Source of the DNA: Candidatus Bipolaricaulis sibiricus
GTDB taxonomy: Bacteria > Bipolaricaulota > Bipolaricaulia > Bipolaricaulales > Bipolaricaulaceae
Length of the DNA: 64,000 nucleotides
Assembly (NCBI GenBank): GCA_004102645.1
Contig: CP034928.1
Span: 806,001 to 870,000 of the forward strand
Reading direction: 5' to 3'
This document shows, in pieces, positions 1 through 12,648 of this stretch. Position 1 is the first letter of the stretch. The number at the start of each line of letters is the position of its first letter. The position numbers were made by a program, and so were the translations under genes. Below the pieces are notes generated by a model. It made no database searches, was not told the DNA's origin, and worked only from the letters and a program-made list of their open reading frames with translations.

Positions 1-713
1 TTCGGGACAATGTCCCGGCCCACCTCCGGCGTACGCAGCTCCATTGGCACGGCACCTTCGTCGCGGGGATCATCGCCGCCCGCCTGACCGAGGGTGGCGC
101 GGCTGGGGTGGCCCCGAACGTTCGGATCATGGACGTGCGATTCCTCGACTCCCGTGGCTTGTTCACAACCAAGGACTGGGACCGCCTGGGAGCGGCCATT
201 CGCTACGCGGTGGACAACGGTGCGCGGATCATCAACCTCAGCCTGTACGCCAAGGGGACCCCGCCGGCGGTTGTGGAAGGAGCCCTTGCCTACGCGGCAT
301 CGCGCGGGGCGATCGTGGTGGGGATCGCCGGGAACGAAGCCCGGGCAGAGGTCCTCTATCCGGGTCGGTACAGCACCGTTCTCGCTGTGTCCGCCACGGA
401 TGCTGCCGACGCCCTGGCCTCGTTCAGCTCGTGGGGTCCGGAGGTCGCTGTGGCGGCCCCCGGGCACGAGGTCGTCTCTCTCCTACCAGGAGGGAGGTTG
501 GCCACGAACTCCGGCACCTCCTTCGCTGCCCCCCACGTGAGCGGCACGTTGGCCCTCATCCTGTCCGCGAATCCAGCTCTGAGTGCAGACGAGGCGGTGC
601 GGATCCTCCTTGCCACCAGCTCACCCCTTGCACCGACCCCGGACCCGCGCTTCGGGGCGGGCCTGGTGAACGCGGGGCGCGGGGTGGCCGCAGCGGCAGG
701 GATCGACCGCTAG
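1..713 (+). CDS. Subtilisin-like serine protease (peptidase S8), C-terminal part
   Basis: The gene enters from the left edge of the window; complete codons begin at position 3 and the stop is TAG at 711-713. The visible part holds most of the S8 catalytic domain. The catalytic histidine lies in HGTFVAGI (codon 48-50), the oxyanion region in the GIAGNE segment, and the catalytic serine in GTSFAAPHVSG (codon 519-521). The catalytic aspartate and any signal peptide or propeptide lie upstream of the window. Family members are usually exported endopeptidases; processing of the surface proteins encoded next door is a plausible role but only an inference. It ends just 14 nt before the promoter of the c-di-GMP locus, so it is probably a separate transcription unit. 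Confidence 0.93.
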   Translation, partial: RDNVPAHLRRTQLHWHGTFVAGIIAARLTEGGAAGVAPNVRIMDVRFLDSRGLFTTKDWDRLGAAIRYAVDNGARIINLSLYAKGTPPAVVEGALAYAASRGAIVVGIAGNEARAEVLYPGRYSTVLAVSATDAADALASFSSWGPEVAVAAPGHEVVSLLPGGRLATNSGTSFAAPHVSGTLALILSANPALSADEAVRILLATSSPLAPTPDPRFGAGLVNAGRGVAAAAGIDR

Positions 714-727
714 GGACAGATGTCCTC

Positions 728-755
728 TTGACAGCGGACCGCTGCCGCCTACACT
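728..755 (+). promoter_or_regulatory. Sigma-70-type promoter for the first c-di-GMP riboswitch unit
   Basis: A perfect -35 box TTGACA (728-733) is followed after 16 nt by TACACT (750-755), a 4/6 match to TATAAT. Transcription would start near 762, about 15 nt before the riboswitch aptamer. It directs expression of the regulator at 911 and probably also of the large surface protein at 1364. Confidence 0.75.
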
Positions 756-776
756 ACAAACCAACGTAAACACACC

Positions 777-850
777 CTGAAAAGGGCAAACCCACGGGAA
801 CGTGGGGGCGCAAAGCAACGGACCCAGGACGGGTGGCCGGGCTGCCAGGT
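777..850 (+). promoter_or_regulatory. c-di-GMP-I (GEMM-I) riboswitch 1
   Basis: The aptamer has all GEMM-I hallmarks: the GGGCAAACC segment (784-792), a stem CCCACG/CGTGGG closed by a GGAA (GNRA) tetraloop, the conserved GCGCAAAGC (809-817), and a 3' GGGCTGCC block (839-846). The family binds cyclic di-GMP. The 3' part overlaps a strong intrinsic terminator (839-876), so ligand binding should block terminator formation and act as an ON switch for the regulator gene at 911. The switching direction is inferred from base pairing only. Confidence 0.92.
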
Positions 851-876
851 GGAGGTACGACCTGGAGCCCGTTTTT
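839..876 (+). terminator. Intrinsic terminator forming the expression platform of riboswitch 1
   Basis: GGGCT (839-843) and CCAGGT (845-850) pair with ACCTGG (860-865) and AGCCC (866-870), giving 11 bp with one bulged G, followed by GTTTTTG. The 5' arm is also the conserved 3' segment of the c-di-GMP aptamer, so aptamer and terminator should be mutually exclusive. Confidence 0.85.
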
Positions 877-910: not shown

Positions 911-1237
911 GTGCAGGTGACGCTGTACTACAACGACGAGGATCAGTACCTGCTGGAGCTGGTCGATGAGCTGGCCGAACGAGAGCGGAAGTCACGTTCG
1001 GCTGTCATCATGTGCATTCTAGAGGAGCACTTCGAACGCGGGAAGCGGTTGGGAGAGATTCTCGTCGACATGAGGGCGATTACCCCCCAGGATGTGCAAG
1101 AGGCTCTGGTCGAGCAGAGTTCGAGTTCGGGAAACGGGCCTCGGAGACTGGGAGAGATTCTGGTCGCGAGGGGCTGCGTGCGGGATGAGACGGTGCGGCG
1201 GGCTCTCGTTGTTCAAGGGCGTTATTGCCGAGGTTGA
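911..1237 (+). CDS. Small ribbon-helix-helix regulator with two MshEN-type c-di-GMP-binding motifs
   Basis: This 108-residue protein starts at GTG 911, 8 nt after AGGAGG (897-902). Residues 1 to about 45 look like a CopG-type ribbon-helix-helix DNA-binding domain: a short beta strand (VTLYYND), a first helix, the turn RKSRSAV, and a second helix. Residues from about 46 carry two 24-residue repeats, each beginning RLGEILV and ending in Q, separated by a short serine/glycine linker. They match the MshEN c-di-GMP motif (RLG, hydrophobic pairs at fixed spacing, final Q); the first copy has R in place of the conserved mid-motif glycine, the second is a full match. I infer a c-di-GMP-responsive transcription factor whose own mRNA is under a c-di-GMP riboswitch. 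The DNA target is unknown; dimerisation through the RHH domain is expected. Confidence 0.75.
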   Translation: MQVTLYYNDEDQYLLELVDELAERERKSRSAVIMCILEEHFERGKRLGEILVDMRAITPQDVQEALVEQSSSSGNGPRRLGEILVARGCVRDETVRRALVVQGRYCRG

Positions 1238-1267
1238 GGTAGGGGGAATTCGATCGCAGTGTAGTCC

Positions 1268-1341
1268 GCCGAAAAGGTAAACCCGGAGCGATCCGGGGGC
1301 GCAAAGCCATGGACCTCCTGTAGGCCGCCAGGCTGCCGAAG
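1268..1341 (+). promoter_or_regulatory. c-di-GMP-I (GEMM-I) riboswitch 2
   Basis: The aptamer contains GGTAAACCC, a CCCGGA/TCCGGG stem capped by a GCGA tetraloop, GCGCAAAGCC (1300-1309) and the 3' GGCTGCCG block (1331-1338). It lies between the regulator gene and the giant surface protein. No terminator follows; a good Shine-Dalgarno AGGAGG (1353-1358) sits 5 nt before ATG 1364, so control is probably translational. The variable part of the aptamer holds CCTCCT (1314-1319), fully complementary to that Shine-Dalgarno. No clear promoter is visible just upstream, so it is probably cotranscribed with the regulator. Confidence 0.92.
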
Positions 1342-1363
1342 CGCAACCAGGTAGGAGGAAACC

Positions 1364-4300
1364 ATGGCGAACTTGATTGAGCTGTTCAGTGTGAGTTCGA
1401 ACCGCGTTCCGCGGTGGGCGGTTGGAGCGGTTCTTCTTTTGGCCGTGCTGGCGAGTGGGACGGTATCACCGTTGGTTTCGGCACAGAACTGCAACAACTA
1501 CACCGTGACATTCCTCGGGGCGACGTTTGACGGGACGAACACCACCTTTAGATACCGTGTATGCTCCAATGGCAACCCGGCGATCAGTCACTGGGTGATG
1601 GGCCTTCCTGGCGGATGTTCGACGTGCGCCGACGTGGTATCGGCAGGGCGAGTCGGCAGCAGCTCGGTAACTTGGTCGTGCGGAACGGATCCCACTACCG
1701 GCGTGTTCGGAGTGAAGTTCGATTTTGGGTTCACCTCAGTCGGGCAGTGCGAGGAGTTCTGGATCACGCTTCGCGGATACTGGCCTACCGGCTACACCAC
1801 AGCCGCGGTGAAGGCAGGGTCAGGCAACTGCTTCTATCAGGTTGAGGGGCCGGCATGTCCTCCTCCCGGCCAGCCGGGGCTGGTGCTCGAGAAGAAGACG
1901 AACGGGGTCGACGCCGATAGCCCGCCCGGTCCGGTGGTGGTGGTGGGGTCGACGGTGACGTGGACGTACGAAGTGACGAACACGGGGAACGTGACGCTGA
2001 CGGAGATCGTCGTGACCGACGATCAGGTAGGTTCGATCGGGACGATTTCGACGTTGGCGCCTGGAGCGAGCGCGACCCTGACGAAGGCGGGGGTAGCGGT
2101 AGCGGGCCAGTACGCGAACGTTGGGAAGGCCGAGACGACGTACAACGGTCAGACGGTGAGCGACACGGATCCGAGCCACTACTTTGGGGCGGCGCCGGGG
2201 CTGGTGCTCGAGAAGAAGACGAACGGGGTCGACGCCGATAGCCCGCCCGGTCCGGTGGTGGTGGTGGGGTCGACGGTGACGTGGACGTACGAAGTGACGA
2301 ACACGGGGAACGTGACGCTGACGGAGATCGTCGTGACCGACGATCAGGTAGGTTCGATCGGGACGATTTCGACGTTGGCGCCTGGAGCGAGCGCGACCCT
2401 GACGAAGGCGGGGGTAGCGGTAGCGGGCCAGTACGCGAACGTTGGGAAGGCCGAGACGACGTACAACGGTCAGACGGTGAGCGACACGGATCCGAGCCAC
2501 TACTTTGGGGCGGCGCCGGGGCTGGTGCTCGAGAAGAAGACGAACGGGGTCGACGCCGATAGCCCGACCGGTCCGGTGGTGGTGGTGGGGTCGACGGTGA
2601 CGTGGACGTACGAAGTGACGAACACGGGGAACGTGACGCTGACGGAGATCGTCGTGACCGACGATCAGGTAGGTTCGATCGGGACGATTCCGACGTTGGC
2701 GGTGGGAGCGAGCGCGACCCTGACGAAGACGGGGGTAGCGGTAGCGGGCCAGTACGCGAACGTTGGGAAGGCCGAGACGACGTACAACGGTCAGGCGGTG
2801 AGCGACACGGATCCGAGCCACTACTTCGGAGCAGACCCGTCGATCGATCTCGTGAAGACAGGCACGCTGAACCTGGGACCTAACGGGCAAGCGGATGCGG
2901 GGGACACGATCAGCTACACGTTCGCGGTGACGAACACTGGCAACGTGACGCTGACGAACGTGACCGTGGCGGACCCCAAGGTGACGGTGGTCGGAGGGCC
3001 GATCGCGTCGCTGGCGGCGGGGGCGACGGACACGACGACGTTCACGGGAACGTACGTACTGACGCAAGCGGACATCGACGCAGGGACGTTCACGAACACC
3101 GCGACGGCGACGGGGACGCCGCCGAGCGGACCGAACGTGAGCGATAGCGATTCCGACACGCAGACGCTCGTCGGGGTGCCGTCGATCGACATAGAGAAGC
3201 ACACGAACGGGGTCGACGCCGATAGCCCGACCGGTCCGGTGGTCGTGGTGGGGTCGACGGTGACGTGGACGTACGAGGTGACGAACACGGGGAACGTGAC
3301 GCTGACGGAGATCGTCGTGACCGACGATCAGGTAGGTTCGATCGGGACGATTTCGACGTTGGCGCCTGGAGCGAGCGCGACCCTGACGAAGACGGGGGTA
3401 GCGGTAGCGGGCCAGTACGGGAACGTTGGGAAGGCCGAGACGACGTACAACGGTCAGACGGTGAGCGACACGGATCCGAGCCACTACCTGGGGGTAGACG
3501 GGCACCTCGCGATCACGCCGGGGTCTGCGACGAACGAGGTGGGTGACCCGCACACGTTCTTGATCACGGCGTACGCACAAGGGGCGAGCCCCATTGGGTG
3601 GAGCCTGGTCTACACGGTGACCCCGACTCCGACCAGCGAGAGCCTGAGCACGCCCACGGTGGCGCCCGACGGGATGAGTGCCACCTGGAGCCTCACGATC
3701 AACAGCGCGGTACCCGGAACGTTCGTGGCGATCCCGACCGTGACGATGACGTTCCCCGGCGGGACCGAGGTCGTGCGGACGACGGACGGCCTGGGCGGGA
3801 GCACCGTGCCGGCGCAGAAGACCTACCTCCAGGGGCGGATCAGCCTGAGTCCGGCGGCAGCCACCAATGAGGTTGGAGATCCGCACACGCTGATTGCAGC
3901 GGTCGAGACGACGAGCGACGGACTCACCTGGATCCCGATGTCGGGGGTGCAGGTGGCGTTCTCCATCATCGGCGGAACGGCGAGCTTCGTGGGTGGGGTC
4001 AACACCTCTATCACCAACGGGGCGGGCCAGGCGGCAGCGCAGATCGTCTCTGCAACCCCGGGAACAGTCCTCGTGCAAGCCGCAGCTGACCTGTTCGGTG
4101 ATGGAACGTTCATCGCCACCACGGGCACAGCGGGCAACGGGGGCAATGCGCAGAAAACCTACGTGGACGCCAGGATCAGCGTGACCCCGCTGGGGTCAGT
4201 GAACCCGGTGGGCACGAACCACGCCGTGACCGCGCTTGTGGAGGTCAACACGGGCGCAGGCTGGGTGCCGGCGCCGAATGGAACGCCGGTCATGTTCACG

Positions 4301-6376
4301 CTGCTCAACAACACCGCCGGAGCTACGTTTGTCACAGCATCGACCACGTCGACCACGGGGGGGCAGGCCTCCGTGACCGTGTTCTCATCGAACCCTGGTG
4401 GCGTCGCCATCCGGGCGACGGCGGATGTGACGGTCGCGGGGCTGGTCGTGCGCCGGGCGACCGGGTCCGGTGGTCTGAACGGGTCGGACGCCGTCAAGAA
4501 CTGGGTGCGCAGTAACGAGCCGCCCACGGCGGACGGCCTATCTCTGGTGACGTGCCGGAACACGCCCCTTGCCTTCTCCCTCCGGGGGAGCGACCCTGAC
4601 GTGAACCTGGCCAGTCCGGACCAGCATCCGCTGGCGTTCGCGATCATCGGGGCGCCGACCTTCGGCGCGGTGAGCGGAGACCTGAGCGCTGTCACGTACA
4701 GCGCGCCGCACAGCGCGTCGGTGGAGGTGGTGTACACACCGCAGCTTGACTTCCTCGGCACGGACTTCGTCACCTACACGGTCACCGATCCCACTGGCAC
4801 GTTCGCGGTGGGTGCGATCCGGATCACTGTTGTGGACTGCGGCGGGGAGATTGCCGGTGGAGCCGGTGCCCTTGGGCCAAGGATCGTGATCAACGAGATC
4901 GCGTGGGGCGGGACGGCGGCAGACCCGAATCACGAGTGGATCGAGCTCTACAGCTCGCTGGGCGAACCGATCGATCTCACCGGGTGGACCCTTCGCTGGC
5001 GCCGGAAGCAACCGGCGACGGTGCTCGAGGAGTACGTGAAGGTTGTGGAACTCCGCGGGGCGATCGACGCGTTCGGGTTCTACCTCATGGAGCGCCGCAC
5101 CGACGACGTGGTGGCTGACATCGAGGCGGACCTCATCTACGAGGAGACGGGACCGATCGTGATCACGGAGATCGCGTGGGGGGGAACGGCGGCGAGCCGT
5201 GATGACCAGTGGATCGAGCTCACCAACGTCACGGAGAACGCGGTGGACCTCACGGGATGGACCCTCCGCTGGCGGCTCACCCAGCCGACGACGCCCGAAG
5301 AGCAGGCGTGGAAGGTGGTTCAACTCCGCGGGACCGTGACCGCCTACGGGACGTACTTGCTGGAGCGGGGCAGCGACGACGCGGTACGGGGAGTTCCGGC
5401 TGATCTCATCTACGCCGTGGCTCTCGACCCGCGCGGCGAGGTTCTGGAGCTCCTGGATCCGGCGGGGAACGTTGTGGACACGGCGAACGCGGAGCGCATG
5501 GGGCGCTCTGGCTGGGCGAGCGGGTACGGCCTAGGGGGTGTCCATCCGTACGCGTCGATGGAACGAGTGAACCCCTTTGTTCGCGACGCAGAGCACAACT
5601 GGCGTGGCAATGAGGGTGTTCTCACCCATGGTTTGGACCGGGATGGGGTACCCCTCGTCGCTACGCCGCGGGCGGTGAACGAGCAGTTCCTGCTCTGGGC
5701 GTACCCGGAGGTGAATCCGGCGGAACTCCCCTCGGATCTGGCATACCTTCCGTTCACCTTGGAGCTGTCCGACCGCGGCGAGATCCTGGAGCTGGTGGAT
5801 CGGGCGGGGAACGTTGTGGACACGGCGAACGCCGACAACCCGGATCGCGACGGGTGGGCGGTGGGATACGGTCTGCACGGGGCGCTGCTGCACGCGACGA
5901 TGGAGCGGGTGGACCCATCGCTGCCGGATCTCGACACGTCGTGGGACGCCAACGAGTACATCGTGATCAATGGTCTCGACACCGACGAGGCGTGCCTCGT
6001 GGCCACAGCCCGCACGACAAACGAACCGGTGGTCATGCGATCTGCGGCGGAACAGGCATCGCAGGCGATTGGGCGTGGTCAGATCCTCACGGTGGTTGTC
6101 GTGGCTCCACCGCTGTGTGACGCAGTTCGCTGTCTCCCCCACGCCGTGATCACCCGAGCTGACCCCGCGTTCGCCGACCAGGTGATGGTTGTTGGGGACA
6201 GCGGGGCTCGGGTCGTCTGGGGGGAACCGGTGGAGAGGACGGACAACTTCCGCTTCCTGGTCGACACCACGTCGCTCGAGGTCGGGAGCTACCGGGTGTG
6301 GATATCGTTGGGGAGCAGTCGGCTTCACGTAATCTCGTTCGAGGTGGTCGAGGAAGCCGTCGCGCGGAGCCGATAA
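1364..6376 (+). CDS. Giant modular surface protein (DUF11, Ig-like, cadherin-like and lamin-tail domains)
   Basis: A 1670-residue exported protein. Residues 1-40 form a signal peptide with a hydrophobic core and a VSA-Q cleavage site. A cysteine-containing N-terminal domain (about 41-170) is followed by three near-identical 107-residue DUF11-type repeats (about 172-492), a divergent DUF11 repeat, and a fourth copy (about 606-708). Next come invasin/Big-like Ig domains sharing a TNEVGDPHT motif (about 710-1040), a cadherin-like domain ending in LGTDFVTYTVTD (about 1047-1165), and two lamin-tail domains starting INEIAWGG and ITEIAWGG (about 1172 and 1264). Two GNVVDTAN repeats and a C-terminal beta domain follow. 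There is no LPXTG motif or obvious membrane anchor. The architecture suggests an adhesin or extracellular matrix protein, controlled by c-di-GMP riboswitch 2. The function is inferred from domains only. Confidence 0.9.
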   Translation: MANLIELFSVSSNRVPRWAVGAVLLLAVLASGTVSPLVSAQNCNNYTVTFLGATFDGTNTTFRYRVCSNGNPAISHWVMGLPGGCSTCADVVSAGRVGSSSVTWSCGTDPTTGVFGVKFDFGFTSVGQCEEFWITLRGYWPTGYTTAAVKAGSGNCFYQVEGPACPPPGQPGLVLEKKTNGVDADSPPGPVVVVGSTVTWTYEVTNTGNVTLTEIVVTDDQVGSIGTISTLAPGASATLTKAGVAVAGQYANVGKAETTYNGQTVSDTDPSHYFGAAPGLVLEKKTNGVDADSPPGPVVVVGSTVTWTYEVTNTGNVTLTEIVVTDDQVGSIGTISTLAPGASATLTKAGVAVAGQYANVGKAETTYNGQTVSDTDPSHYFGAAPGLVLEKKTNGVDADSPTGPVVVVGSTVTWTYEVTNTGNVTLTEIVVTDDQVGSIGTIPTLAVGASATLTKTGVAVAGQYANVGKAETTYNGQAVSDTDPSHYFGADPSIDLVKTGTLNLGPNGQADAGDTISYTFAVTNTGNVTLTNVTVADPKVTVVGGPIASLAAGATDTTTFTGTYVLTQADIDAGTFTNTATATGTPPSGPNVSDSDSDTQTLVGVPSIDIEKHTNGVDADSPTGPVVVVGSTVTWTYEVTNTGNVTLTEIVVTDDQVGSIGTISTLAPGASATLTKTGVAVAGQYGNVGKAETTYNGQTVSDTDPSHYLGVDGHLAITPGSATNEVGDPHTFLITAYAQGASPIGWSLVYTVTPTPTSESLSTPTVAPDGMSATWSLTINSAVPGTFVAIPTVTMTFPGGTEVVRTTDGLGGSTVPAQKTYLQGRISLSPAAATNEVGDPHTLIAAVETTSDGLTWIPMSGVQVAFSIIGGTASFVGGVNTSITNGAGQAAAQIVSATPGTVLVQAAADLFGDGTFIATTGTAGNGGNAQKTYVDARISVTPLGSVNPVGTNHAVTALVEVNTGAGWVPAPNGTPVMFTLLNNTAGATFVTASTTSTTGGQASVTVFSSNPGGVAIRATADVTVAGLVVRRATGSGGLNGSDAVKNWVRSNEPPTADGLSLVTCRNTPLAFSLRGSDPDVNLASPDQHPLAFAIIGAPTFGAVSGDLSAVTYSAPHSASVEVVYTPQLDFLGTDFVTYTVTDPTGTFAVGAIRITVVDCGGEIAGGAGALGPRIVINEIAWGGTAADPNHEWIELYSSLGEPIDLTGWTLRWRRKQPATVLEEYVKVVELRGAIDAFGFYLMERRTDDVVADIEADLIYEETGPIVITEIAWGGTAASRDDQWIELTNVTENAVDLTGWTLRWRLTQPTTPEEQAWKVVQLRGTVTAYGTYLLERGSDDAVRGVPADLIYAVALDPRGEVLELLDPAGNVVDTANAERMGRSGWASGYGLGGVHPYASMERVNPFVRDAEHNWRGNEGVLTHGLDRDGVPLVATPRAVNEQFLLWAYPEVNPAELPSDLAYLPFTLELSDRGEILELVDRAGNVVDTANADNPDRDGWAVGYGLHGALLHATMERVDPSLPDLDTSWDANEYIVINGLDTDEACLVATARTTNEPVVMRSAAEQASQAIGRGQILTVVVVAPPLCDAVRCLPHAVITRADPAFADQVMVVGDSGARVVWGEPVERTDNFRFLVDTTSLEVGSYRVWISLGSSRLHVISFEVVEEAVARSR
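1880..2842 (+). repeat. Three tandem 321-bp repeats inside the giant surface protein gene
   Basis: The units start at 1880, 2201 and 2522, exactly 321 bp (107 codons) apart. The first two appear identical; the third differs at a few bases. A fourth, slightly more divergent copy lies at about 3190-3490 after a different DUF11 unit. The near-identity at DNA level, including silent sites, points to recent duplication or gene conversion. The in-frame period means that slippage or recombination would change repeat number without breaking the frame. Confidence 0.95.
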
Positions 6377-11187: not shown

Positions 11188-11215
11188 TTGACGGGAGAAG
11201 CTAGGTGTATATACT
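11188..11215 (+). promoter_or_regulatory. Promoter for the second c-di-GMP riboswitch unit
   Basis: TTGACG (11188-11193) and TATACT (11210-11215) are separated by 16 nt. Each matches the sigma-70 consensus at 5 of 6 positions. The predicted start near 11222 gives a 56-nt leader before riboswitch 3. The interval 11005-11187 shows no gene. Confidence 0.75.
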
Positions 11216-11277
11216 GGAAACACCGATACAGATAGCCGGGGAGGGGAGGTGGCACCGGGCAACTGACCGACGACCGT

Positions 11278-11351
11278 CCGAAAAGGGCAAACCCACGGCA
11301 ACGTGGGGACGCAAAGCCGACAGGTCCCTCTGGGATGGCTGGGTTGCCGAA
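11278..11351 (+). promoter_or_regulatory. c-di-GMP-I (GEMM-I) riboswitch 3
   Basis: Hallmarks are GGGCAAACCC, a CCCACG/CGTGGG stem with a GCAA tetraloop, GACGCAAAGCC (11309-11319) and the 3' GGGTTGCCG block (11341-11349). The start codon of the next gene (11354) lies only about 3 nt after the aptamer, with no separate Shine-Dalgarno between them. Ligand binding could therefore affect ribosome access directly; a GTG at 11372 preceded by AGGAAGG is an alternative start. The direction of control is not clear. Confidence 0.9.
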
Positions 11352-11353
11352 GC

Positions 11354-11827
11354 ATGGTCAGGAAGGCGGTTGTGCTCGCGATGGTGGGGATGGTGGCCGG
11401 GGGCGCCCTCGGTTGTGCGAAGTCAACCACGGCGGGTGCTCAGGCCACGGTCGTGATTCCGGTGCTCGCCCGTCTCTCCGTTCAGGGCGCGAAGGAGTCG
11501 GGTCGGGAGATCCCTGTAGCGGTGGAGTTCCGAGCTCCGACGCCCGACCCTTCGGGCTCCGTTGAGCTCCGGCAGGTGGTCAGCCTTGTCGTGCGCAGCA
11601 ACGCGCCGTGGGCACTCGTCGTGCGCCCCCACGATCTCTCCTCGCAGGGGATCGTGGAGGTGCGCACCGAGCGTGGGGAATACCGGCCGGTTCGGCCGGA
11701 AGGGCTGGTCCTCGCCGCGGGGATGCCCGGCGTGTACGAGATCGTGCTCGACTACCGGGTGCACGTGGGCGCGGCCGGGTGGAATGGTGAGCGTGCGCTC
11801 ACCCTGATCTACGCGATCGAGGGATAG
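11354..11827 (+). CDS. Small exported protein, possible lipoprotein, of the locus's beta-sandwich family
   Basis: 157 residues from ATG 11354. The N-terminus (MVRKAVVLAMVGMV then GGALGCAKS) is a signal peptide; ALGC is a weak lipobox, so membrane attachment through cysteine 21 is possible. The mature part begins with a strand-rich segment (ATVVIPVLARLSV) and ends YEIVLDYRVHV…ALTLIYAIEG. This layout parallels the next gene, which has AQFTVPTLIRLSL near its start and DYSLAFTYTLTAP at its end, so I treat them as distant paralogues. The fold resembles WxL or spore-coat-U type beta-sandwiches only in general pattern. Expression is expected to depend on c-di-GMP through riboswitch 3. Confidence 0.75.
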   Translation: MVRKAVVLAMVGMVAGGALGCAKSTTAGAQATVVIPVLARLSVQGAKESGREIPVAVEFRAPTPDPSGSVELRQVVSLVVRSNAPWALVVRPHDLSSQGIVEVRTERGEYRPVRPEGLVLAAGMPGVYEIVLDYRVHVGAAGWNGERALTLIYAIEG

Positions 11828-12002
11828 ACGTGCCCACGTTGACGGACGGGCGCGACGTGGGAAGGTGGATGCTGGCAGAGAACTGGCGCGTGAGCCCCGT
11901 ATCCTGTGGTCAAGGGGAGGTGGTCGTCGGACTGAGGACAACGCGAGCTCGGGAGACCGTTCTCGCGGCAACGACAGGTTTCGGGATGACACACGAGGTG
12001 AT

Positions 12003-12083
12003 CGAACCGGCAAACCCGGGGCGACCCGGGGACGCAAAGCCACAGATCTCCCTCCTGTGGGGAGATGGCTGGGCTGCCGAAAC
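12003..12083 (+). promoter_or_regulatory. c-di-GMP-I (GEMM-I) riboswitch 4
   Basis: Hallmarks are GGCAAACCC, a CCCGGG/CCCGGG stem capped by GCGA, GACGCAAAGCC (12031-12041), a variable stem ATCTCC/GGAGAT and the 3' GGGCTGCCG block (12071-12079). It is followed directly by an Shine-Dalgarno-sequestering helix (12085-12128), so control should be translational. I see no convincing separate promoter in 11828-12002; the gene is probably cotranscribed with the preceding one. Confidence 0.92.
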
Positions 12084-12135: not shown

Positions 12136-12648
12136 ATGATGAAGGTTCGTACACTTACGGTTGGCATGTTGGCTTTGGGGCTGCTTGTGGGCGTGGCGGG
12201 GACGGCGCAGGTCACGGCGGGTTCGACGGCGCAGTTCACGGTGCCAACGTTGATCCGGCTGTCGCTCTCGACGAGCACGATCAACTTCGGGACGCTGACT
12301 GAGGCGGACTACGACGCCGGGCAGAAGACCGTTTTCTCTGCTCAGGGCATCCAGATCTGGAGCAACAAGAGCTGGACCCTCAGCGTCGCCGCTAACACCG
12401 CAACGTGGACTGGCCCGTGGGCGAAGCCGTCCACCGACCTGCTGTTCCGCGCGACGACGTCGGATGGACGCGTGTCTTCGTACGCGAGCACGTTCACCGG
12501 GCTCACGACGGGGGCAACGCAGGTCGCCGCGGGCACGAGGGGCGGGAATGTCCAGCTCTCCATGGACTTCGAGGTCCTCGTGAGCTGGGAGAACGACCCG
12601 GCCGGCGACTACAGCTTGGCGTTCACGTACACGCTCACCGCCCCGTAA
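12136..12648 (+). CDS. Exported beta-sandwich protein (WxL/spore-coat-U-like), founding member of the local family
   Basis: 170 residues from ATG 12136 (ATG 12139 is also possible), 5-7 nt after GGAGGAG. A signal peptide (VRTLTVGMLALGLLVGVAGTAQ) precedes a single beta-rich domain. Features are TINFGTLTEADYDAG, SNKSWTLSVAAN, a GGNVQLSMDFEVLVSWE strand pair, and the terminal strand DYSLAFTYTLTAP. The gene at 12725 shares the same domain, including the DYDAG/HYDAG motif and the xFTYTLTxP ending. The pattern of a short exported subunit with a conserved C-terminal strand would suit a polymerising or surface-attached subunit, which is an inference. An intrinsic terminator follows the gene. Confidence 0.8.
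   Translation: MMKVRTLTVGMLALGLLVGVAGTAQVTAGSTAQFTVPTLIRLSLSTSTINFGTLTEADYDAGQKTVFSAQGIQIWSNKSWTLSVAANTATWTGPWAKPSTDLLFRATTSDGRVSSYASTFTGLTTGATQVAAGTRGGNVQLSMDFEVLVSWENDPAGDYSLAFTYTLTAP

Follow-up and report, generated by a model that had tools for sequence, protein, structure and literature searches.

The gene at positions 911-1237 of the window (the whole 64,000-nt stretch of DNA analysed), here called rhh-mshEN, encodes a 108-residue protein in which a ribbon-helix-helix (RHH) domain is followed by two MshEN motifs. With moderate confidence, we interpret this protein as a one-component transcription factor that responds to c-di-GMP, regulates its own gene, probably as an activator, and works in a double-reading loop; ligand binding, DNA binding, the ON direction of its riboswitch and activation are all inferred. 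In the proposed loop, c-di-GMP bound by a riboswitch would permit synthesis of the mRNA, c-di-GMP bound by the MshEN domain would activate the protein, and the protein would act on its own promoter and on the region of a diguanylate cyclase (DGC) gene. One signal would probably be read twice, at the RNA and at the protein level, to control surface proteins, although binding of the ligand is an inference. The new element is a predicted palindromic site upstream of the rhh-mshEN promoter, which recurs beside the DGC gene. Sequence or prediction shows the domains and their folds, the aptamers, a terminator overlapping the leader aptamer, and an operator that is conserved and helically phased.

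911-1237, forward strand: rhh-mshEN gene, GTG start, RHH-MshEN protein of 108 residues
Residues 1-42 of the RHH-MshEN protein: RHH domain
Residues 46-69: MshEN motif 1 (24 residues)
Residues 70-78: spacer between the MshEN motifs (9 residues)
Residues 79-102: MshEN motif 2 (24 residues)

An AGGAGG Shine-Dalgarno sequence lies 5' of the GTG start codon, and the open reading frame translates as MQVTLYYNDEDQYLLELVDELAERERKSRSAVIMCILEEHFERGKRLGEILVDMRAITPQDVQEALVEQSSSSGNGPRRLGEILVARGCVRDETVRRALVVQGRYCRG (GTG taken as M). It is a genuine, constrained gene, since comparison with six orthologues gave a dN/dS of about 0.04-0.2, corresponding to purifying selection, and most changes were located at third codon positions.

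The initial annotation had described the product as an RHH fold joined to two 24-residue MshEN motifs and had proposed a search with MshEN and RHH profiles. This composition was borne out by profiles, solved structures, AlphaFold/Foldseek and residue conservation, and we are highly confident of both domain identities. The profile search itself succeeded in part: PF01402 (Pfam RHH_1) matched residues 14-42 (23.7 bits, cut-off 20.5) and NF053729 (NCBIfam, MshE-related c-di-GMP motif) covered residues 46-102 (74.7 bits, cut-off 38, E = 3.6e-21), but PF05157 (Pfam MshEN) had no match in the protein at E ≤ 1. A whole-genome search with PF05157 also returned nothing at the rhh-mshEN locus, and one weak, unrelated match elsewhere. 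As the PF05157 model has 90 positions, versus 53 residues for the tandem motif, this miss reflects the sensitivity of the model as much as family membership. All 63 of the 63 RHH-MshEN family members were matched by NF053729, and only 15 of them were reached by PF01402 at E ≤ 0.01. Among solved structures, PilF and PilB were the top phmmer matches of the protein, and a profile built from the 63 members reached MshE (5htl, E = 3.4e-6). Pfam matches to Fumarase_C and DUF4388 were rejected as spurious or remote, fold support being absent.

The AlphaFold2 model (alignment A1; mean pLDDT 92) was characterized, from the N-terminus to the C-terminus, by an extended stretch (residues 1-8), two RHH helices (9-25 and 29-42) and an MshEN half of four helices (47-53, 59-71, 80-86 and 92-106); DSSP assigned no strand in this monomer model. 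Foldseek matched the C-terminal half to c-di-GMP-bound PilF-GSPIIB of Thermus (8pfa; probability 1.00, 0.9 Å over 58 columns) and to MshE with c-di-GMP (5htl_B, 1.1 Å), and ligand-bound PilF/MshE structures superposed on the model at 0.9-1.2 Å. The N-terminal half matched Arc (1baz, probability 0.96), CopG on DNA (1ea4, target TM-score 0.80) and, at fold level and in the RHH half only, CdbA (6sbx). The Foldseek E-values were modest (0.03 and up) because both halves are short; the matches of both agreed with the sequence profiles. Overall, the protein meets what is expected of an RHH domain (PF01402 above cut-off, two helices, Arc and CopG-DNA matches) and, according to AlphaFold2 and Foldseek, of a four-helix MshEN_N fold.

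The regulatory elements and neighbouring genes were as follows.

728-733 and 750-755, forward strand: -35 (TTGACA) and -10 (TACACT) boxes of a sigma-70 type promoter, the aligned hexamers being conserved in relatives
776-850, forward strand: c-di-GMP-I-GGC aptamer in the rhh-mshEN leader (RF03167, 61.1 bits, E = 5.8e-12)
838-871 and 872-876, forward strand: stem and U5 tract of an intrinsic terminator (-23.9 kcal/mol, z = -3.23)
1267-1341, forward strand: second c-di-GMP-I-GGC aptamer, in the leader of the surface-protein gene (RF03167, 64.1 bits)
1306-1368, forward strand: translational expression platform (MFE fold)
1364-6376, forward strand: secreted repeat protein of 1670 residues (Pfam DUF7507/DUF11 repeats, Lamin Tail Domains)
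108-713, forward strand: 3' part of a subtilase S8 gene (Pfam PF00082), upstream of rhh-mshEN
G000:C1:805570-805644, directly outside the window: RF03167 aptamer of the subtilase gene
11277-11352, forward strand: c-di-GMP-I-GGC aptamer of the gene at 11303-11827 (RF03167, 63.6 bits)
12000-12082, forward strand: c-di-GMP-I-GGC aptamer upstream of a secreted-protein gene ending at 12648 (RF03167, 61.6 bits)

The site at 728-755 was the only promoter-like site within 600-1500. A c-di-GMP riboswitch terminator had already been claimed for the rhh-mshEN leader, and this was upheld: the RF03167 aptamer at 776-850 overlaps the terminator at 838-876, the stem and the aptamer having 13 nt in common (838-850), and relatives show the same layout. 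Aptamer and platform are mutually exclusive, as is required of a riboswitch, which was judged on sequence and folding only. Since the terminator overlaps the aptamer, a ligand-stabilised aptamer should permit read-through, and the leader is predicted to be a ligand-ON switch, this direction being inferred.

The second aptamer has counterparts downstream of rhh-mshEN in relatives. Base-pairing is possible between its segment 1306-1319 (GCCATGGACCTCCT) and 1353-1368 (AGGAGGAAACCATGGC), where the surface-protein gene has its ribosome-binding site and start codon. GCCAUGGACCUCCU is the part of the aptamer engaged in this pairing, which was stable in 12 of the 12 orthologues, with compensating changes. 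The secreted repeat protein is the target of this second riboswitch, and the aptamer probably controls this giant surface protein at translation. Within the surface-protein gene, five 321-bp tandem repeats were observed (1873-3494), some of them nearly identical in DNA, which suggests recent expansion or gene conversion.

A total of five RF03167 aptamers was found in the 1.70-Mb genome, all located at the rhh-mshEN locus (genome positions 805570-818082) and all above the gathering score of 59. They are ordinary members of the c-di-GMP-I-GGC family; what is unusual is the linkage to an RHH-MshEN gene. Besides the subtilase and the repeat surface protein carrying Lamin Tail Domains, the riboswitch-led genes of the locus encode further secreted proteins, a set that we infer to suit a c-di-GMP-controlled attachment or matrix programme. 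Among 77 rhh-mshEN copies, an aptamer was present at most 350 nt upstream in 39, at most 250 nt downstream in 32, and in either position in 44; this linkage recurs across several families of the class. Sister families have canonical c-di-GMP-I (RF01051) aptamers at the corresponding place, which argues that the GGC variant probably senses c-di-GMP like the canonical one, although its ligand is inferred. Two loci of sister families (L085, 1640-1888; L105, 1661-1940) carry tandem aptamers before RHH-MshEN, one GGC and one canonical. Moreover, the leader of the paralogue in L065, L066 and L067 resembles a degenerate GEMM aptamer (AAGGCCAACCCATCGCGAAGGTGGG in L066), a likeness seen by eye and without covariance-model support.

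Two copies of a palindrome were considered as predicted sites of action of the protein.

714-725, forward strand: predicted operator GGACAGATGTCC, inverted repeat GGACA-nn-TGTCC, upstream of the gene's own -35 box
G000:C1:307757-307768, reverse strand: copy of the 12-mer operator in the same genome, upstream of a GGDEF gene

A GAC[AG]NATGTCC element beside the -35 box was first noticed in a side-by-side reading of upstream regions, and the consensus is GGAC[AG][AG][AG]TGTCC. Allowing at most one mismatch, 23 of the 24 family f1 copies linked to a riboswitch carry it, 60-63 nt upstream of the aptamer, versus 0.1 expected from shuffling; these sequences are related and non-independent, though many genera are covered. 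An operator common to all aptamer promoters was ruled out, as only 1 of 31 other aptamer-led promoters of family f1 carried the site, and so was a class-wide operator (0 of 13 aptamer-linked promoters outside the family). The initial annotation had proposed gel shifts on promoters at 728 and 11188. The first has the predicted operator beside it, but the promoter-like TTGACG/TATACT at 11188-11216, before the 11277 aptamer, has none (best match, 3 mismatches). Across 12 genomes, GGACRRRTGTCC was counted 54 times versus 28 for the reversed control; as this excess is only about 2-fold, few further targets and a small regulon are expected, and a large operator regulon is unsupported.

The DGC-adjacent operator was observed in 10 of the 10 orthologous intergenic regions of the genus, mostly exact and in two with one base changed, as a conserved island in diverged DNA. 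It faces a divergently transcribed gene whose product, a small membrane protein, matches 8xMP weakly (L113-L122); a conserved TTGAACCGAT box was also seen there between the operator and the divergent promoter.

It could be supposed that the palindrome is the site of another regulator and that RHH-MshEN binds elsewhere. No palindrome is seen beyond family f1 or in several of its genera, although the RHH strand residues are unchanged there, and in G007, a member of the genus, the DGC-adjacent site is present without a detected RHH-MshEN gene. However, the palindrome is present in nearly every riboswitch-linked f1 rhh-mshEN promoter and beside a gene for c-di-GMP synthesis, these being the two places where the protein would be expected to act, and in genome G011 aptamer, operator and DGC orthologue are absent all together. 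This explanation is possible but doubtful, and we regard the palindrome at 714-725 as the likely operator of RHH-MshEN, in the absence of binding data.

Most rhh promoters have 30-32 bp between the operator centre and the -10 box; this distance was 41-42 bp in genus g13 and in one g7 promoter, and 51 bp in 10 of the 10 divergent promoters beside the DGC gene, for which the -10 boxes (CCTA.GgT) were assigned by eye. Spacings of about 31, 41 and 51 bp correspond to the same helix face, and a shift by roughly one helical turn at a time suits contact with polymerase and therefore an activator. Characterized RHH proteins are mostly repressors, many of them acting on their own promoters, and the operator abuts the -35 box. 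A c-di-GMP-relieved autorepressor, in which the apo protein represses at the operator and c-di-GMP releases it, must thus be considered. CdbA, an RHH receptor of c-di-GMP, shows mutual exclusion of DNA and ligand (PMC7156744). Yet autorepression seems unlikely, since the operator lies upstream of the -35 box and not over -35/-10, its spacing shifts by about one helical turn, as polymerase contact predicts, and the CdbA ligand occupies the RHH surface whereas RHH-MshEN has a separate ligand domain. An activator rather than a repressor is accordingly inferred to be the fairly probable mode of action.

The residues of the protein were compared in 74 distinct homologues. In motif 1, G3, E4, L6, L21 and Q24 were invariant and position 1 was R or K in 73 of the 74; in motif 2, G3 and A20 were invariant, Q24 was present in 73 (the exception being an unread residue), L21 in 72 and L6 in 71. 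The protein thus has the R1, G3, L6, L21 and Q24 that define the tandem 24-residue motif. In the RHH half, Q2, T4, R26, S28 and S30 were invariant and Y6 was found in 73 homologues. We take the Q2/T4/Y6 region to be the DNA-reading strand of RHH proteins, and dimeric DNA binding through this strand is a putative inference from the conservation of these three residues.

Some departures from MshE were also observed. The spacer between the motifs has 9 residues in the window protein and 6-9 in homologues, versus 5 in MshE; turn position 10 of motif 1 is R, against G in 54 of the 74 homologues; and position 17 is V, not L, in both motifs. The protein consequently lacks the five-residue spacer and the turn glycine in each motif of the MshE type. 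In Wang et al. 2016 (PMC5013675), the conserved motif positions are described as c-di-GMP contacts in MshE, and the MshEN units of MshE, PilF, PilB and other proteins likewise consist of two 24-residue RLGxxL...LxxxLxxQ motifs forming a near-superposable four-helix c-di-GMP-binding unit. Binding of c-di-GMP by the MshEN domain is very likely, though inferred without binding data. An MshEN part that has ceased to bind c-di-GMP and is kept for oligomerisation or partner binding alone, with the riboswitch as sole sensor, would fit the changes at position 17 and the turn glycine, the missing PF05157 match and a relative without one of the two motifs (L069, G005). This is very improbable given that both motifs keep Q24, G3, L6 and L21 practically without exception over the class, that MshEN_N of MshE binds on its own at 0.35 µM (PMC5013675) and that the fit to ligand-bound structures is 0.9-1.2 Å.

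In the mechanism we propose, read-through into rhh-mshEN would require c-di-GMP in the leader aptamer, whose occupancy prevents the overlapping terminator. The four-helix C-terminal MshEN domain (46-69, 79-102) would bind c-di-GMP and set the activity of a dimeric RHH head (strand Q2/T4/Y6, helices 9-25 and 29-42), which would read GGAC[AG][AG][AG]TGTCC. The protein would then probably act as an activator from 714-725, upstream of the -35 box of its own gene, with a second site of action beside the DGC gene, so that c-di-GMP would turn on the synthesis of the regulator as well as its activity, in the neighbourhood of surface proteins under riboswitch control. If this is true, RHH-MshEN would be a minimal c-di-GMP transcription factor of 108 residues, in a genome without a detected PilZ receptor and in a poorly studied phylum; sensing of one messenger by RNA and by protein would be joined in a single gene; and DNA-binding regulators would be added to the MshEN outputs. 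A named operator and two target promoters make the c-di-GMP wiring of Bipolaricaulota testable with purified parts.

Among known systems, the nearest protein is CdbA which, with CdbB of Myxococcales, is likewise a small, c-di-GMP-responsive RHH DNA-binding protein; however, it has no MshEN, its c-di-GMP site being on the RHH face itself, acts mainly in nucleoid organisation, and has homologues reported in Myxococcales only (PMC7156744). With 108 residues including an MshEN domain, our protein does not belong to the CdbA family of RHH-only proteins without an extra ligand domain. MrkH-type PilZ regulators, BldD, FleQ and VpsT are likewise one-component or response-type c-di-GMP transcription factors, but with different DNA-binding folds and ligand sites. 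MshEN partners described in the main text of Wang 2016 (PMC5013675) are ATPase, glycosyltransferase, REC, HD-GYP, CheA, CheX, cyclase and kinase domains, and no DNA-binding-domain fusion is named there. In the full-text literature, the combination of MshEN and ribbon-helix-helix returned only CdbA and one Myxococcus MrpC paper, subscription papers being mostly outside the scope. The Vc2 riboswitch-TfoY pair of Vibrio cholerae likewise places a regulator gene under a c-di-GMP-I riboswitch, and the TfoY protein is also listed as c-di-GMP dependent (table of PMC10519070; Joshi 2020 as cited in PMC12564702). TfoY is a precedent for double reading of c-di-GMP, but the protein is TfoX-like and has neither MshEN nor RHH.

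In the cell context, three GGDEF proteins were found in the genome, and a PilZ search of the genome gave no match. Only two MshEN-family proteins are encoded, both fused to RHH, the second being the RHH-MshEN paralogue of the genus (G000:C1:1357740-1358045, reverse strand).

The initial annotation had also called for a search for the same architecture in related genomes, and it was recovered in 72 of 100 genomes of the phylum Bipolaricaulota (E ≤ 1e-6). Nearly all matches were full-length fusions, a few spanning the RHH half or the MshEN half alone. In public records, close relatives are labelled Bipolaricaulota/Acetothermia. No RHH-MshEN relative was found in plasmid and phage collections, and viral contigs gave a single MshEN-only match. 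A contig scan with peptide patterns returned only Bipolaricaulota-type loci, but these patterns reach close relatives only, so that absence outside the phylum is not shown. The odds seem to us evenly balanced that RHH-MshEN proteins across the phylum form a family of one-component c-di-GMP transcription factors that has not been described before and closes a feed-forward/feedback loop.

One contig titled 'Thermotoga sp.' (L034, DYGJ01000065.1) carries a Bipolaricaulota-type locus with 83% identity and is probably a mislabelled MAG. In family f5 (L079, L081), several RHH-MshEN copies were observed within about 10 kb, behind c-di-GMP-I aptamers. Finally, the complete relative L069 (G005:C1, about 1045194-1045415, reverse strand) is down to one MshEN motif, a hybrid that apparently arose when the two repeats recombined; its product consists of RHH and this single motif, which bears on whether a dimer forms one pocket.
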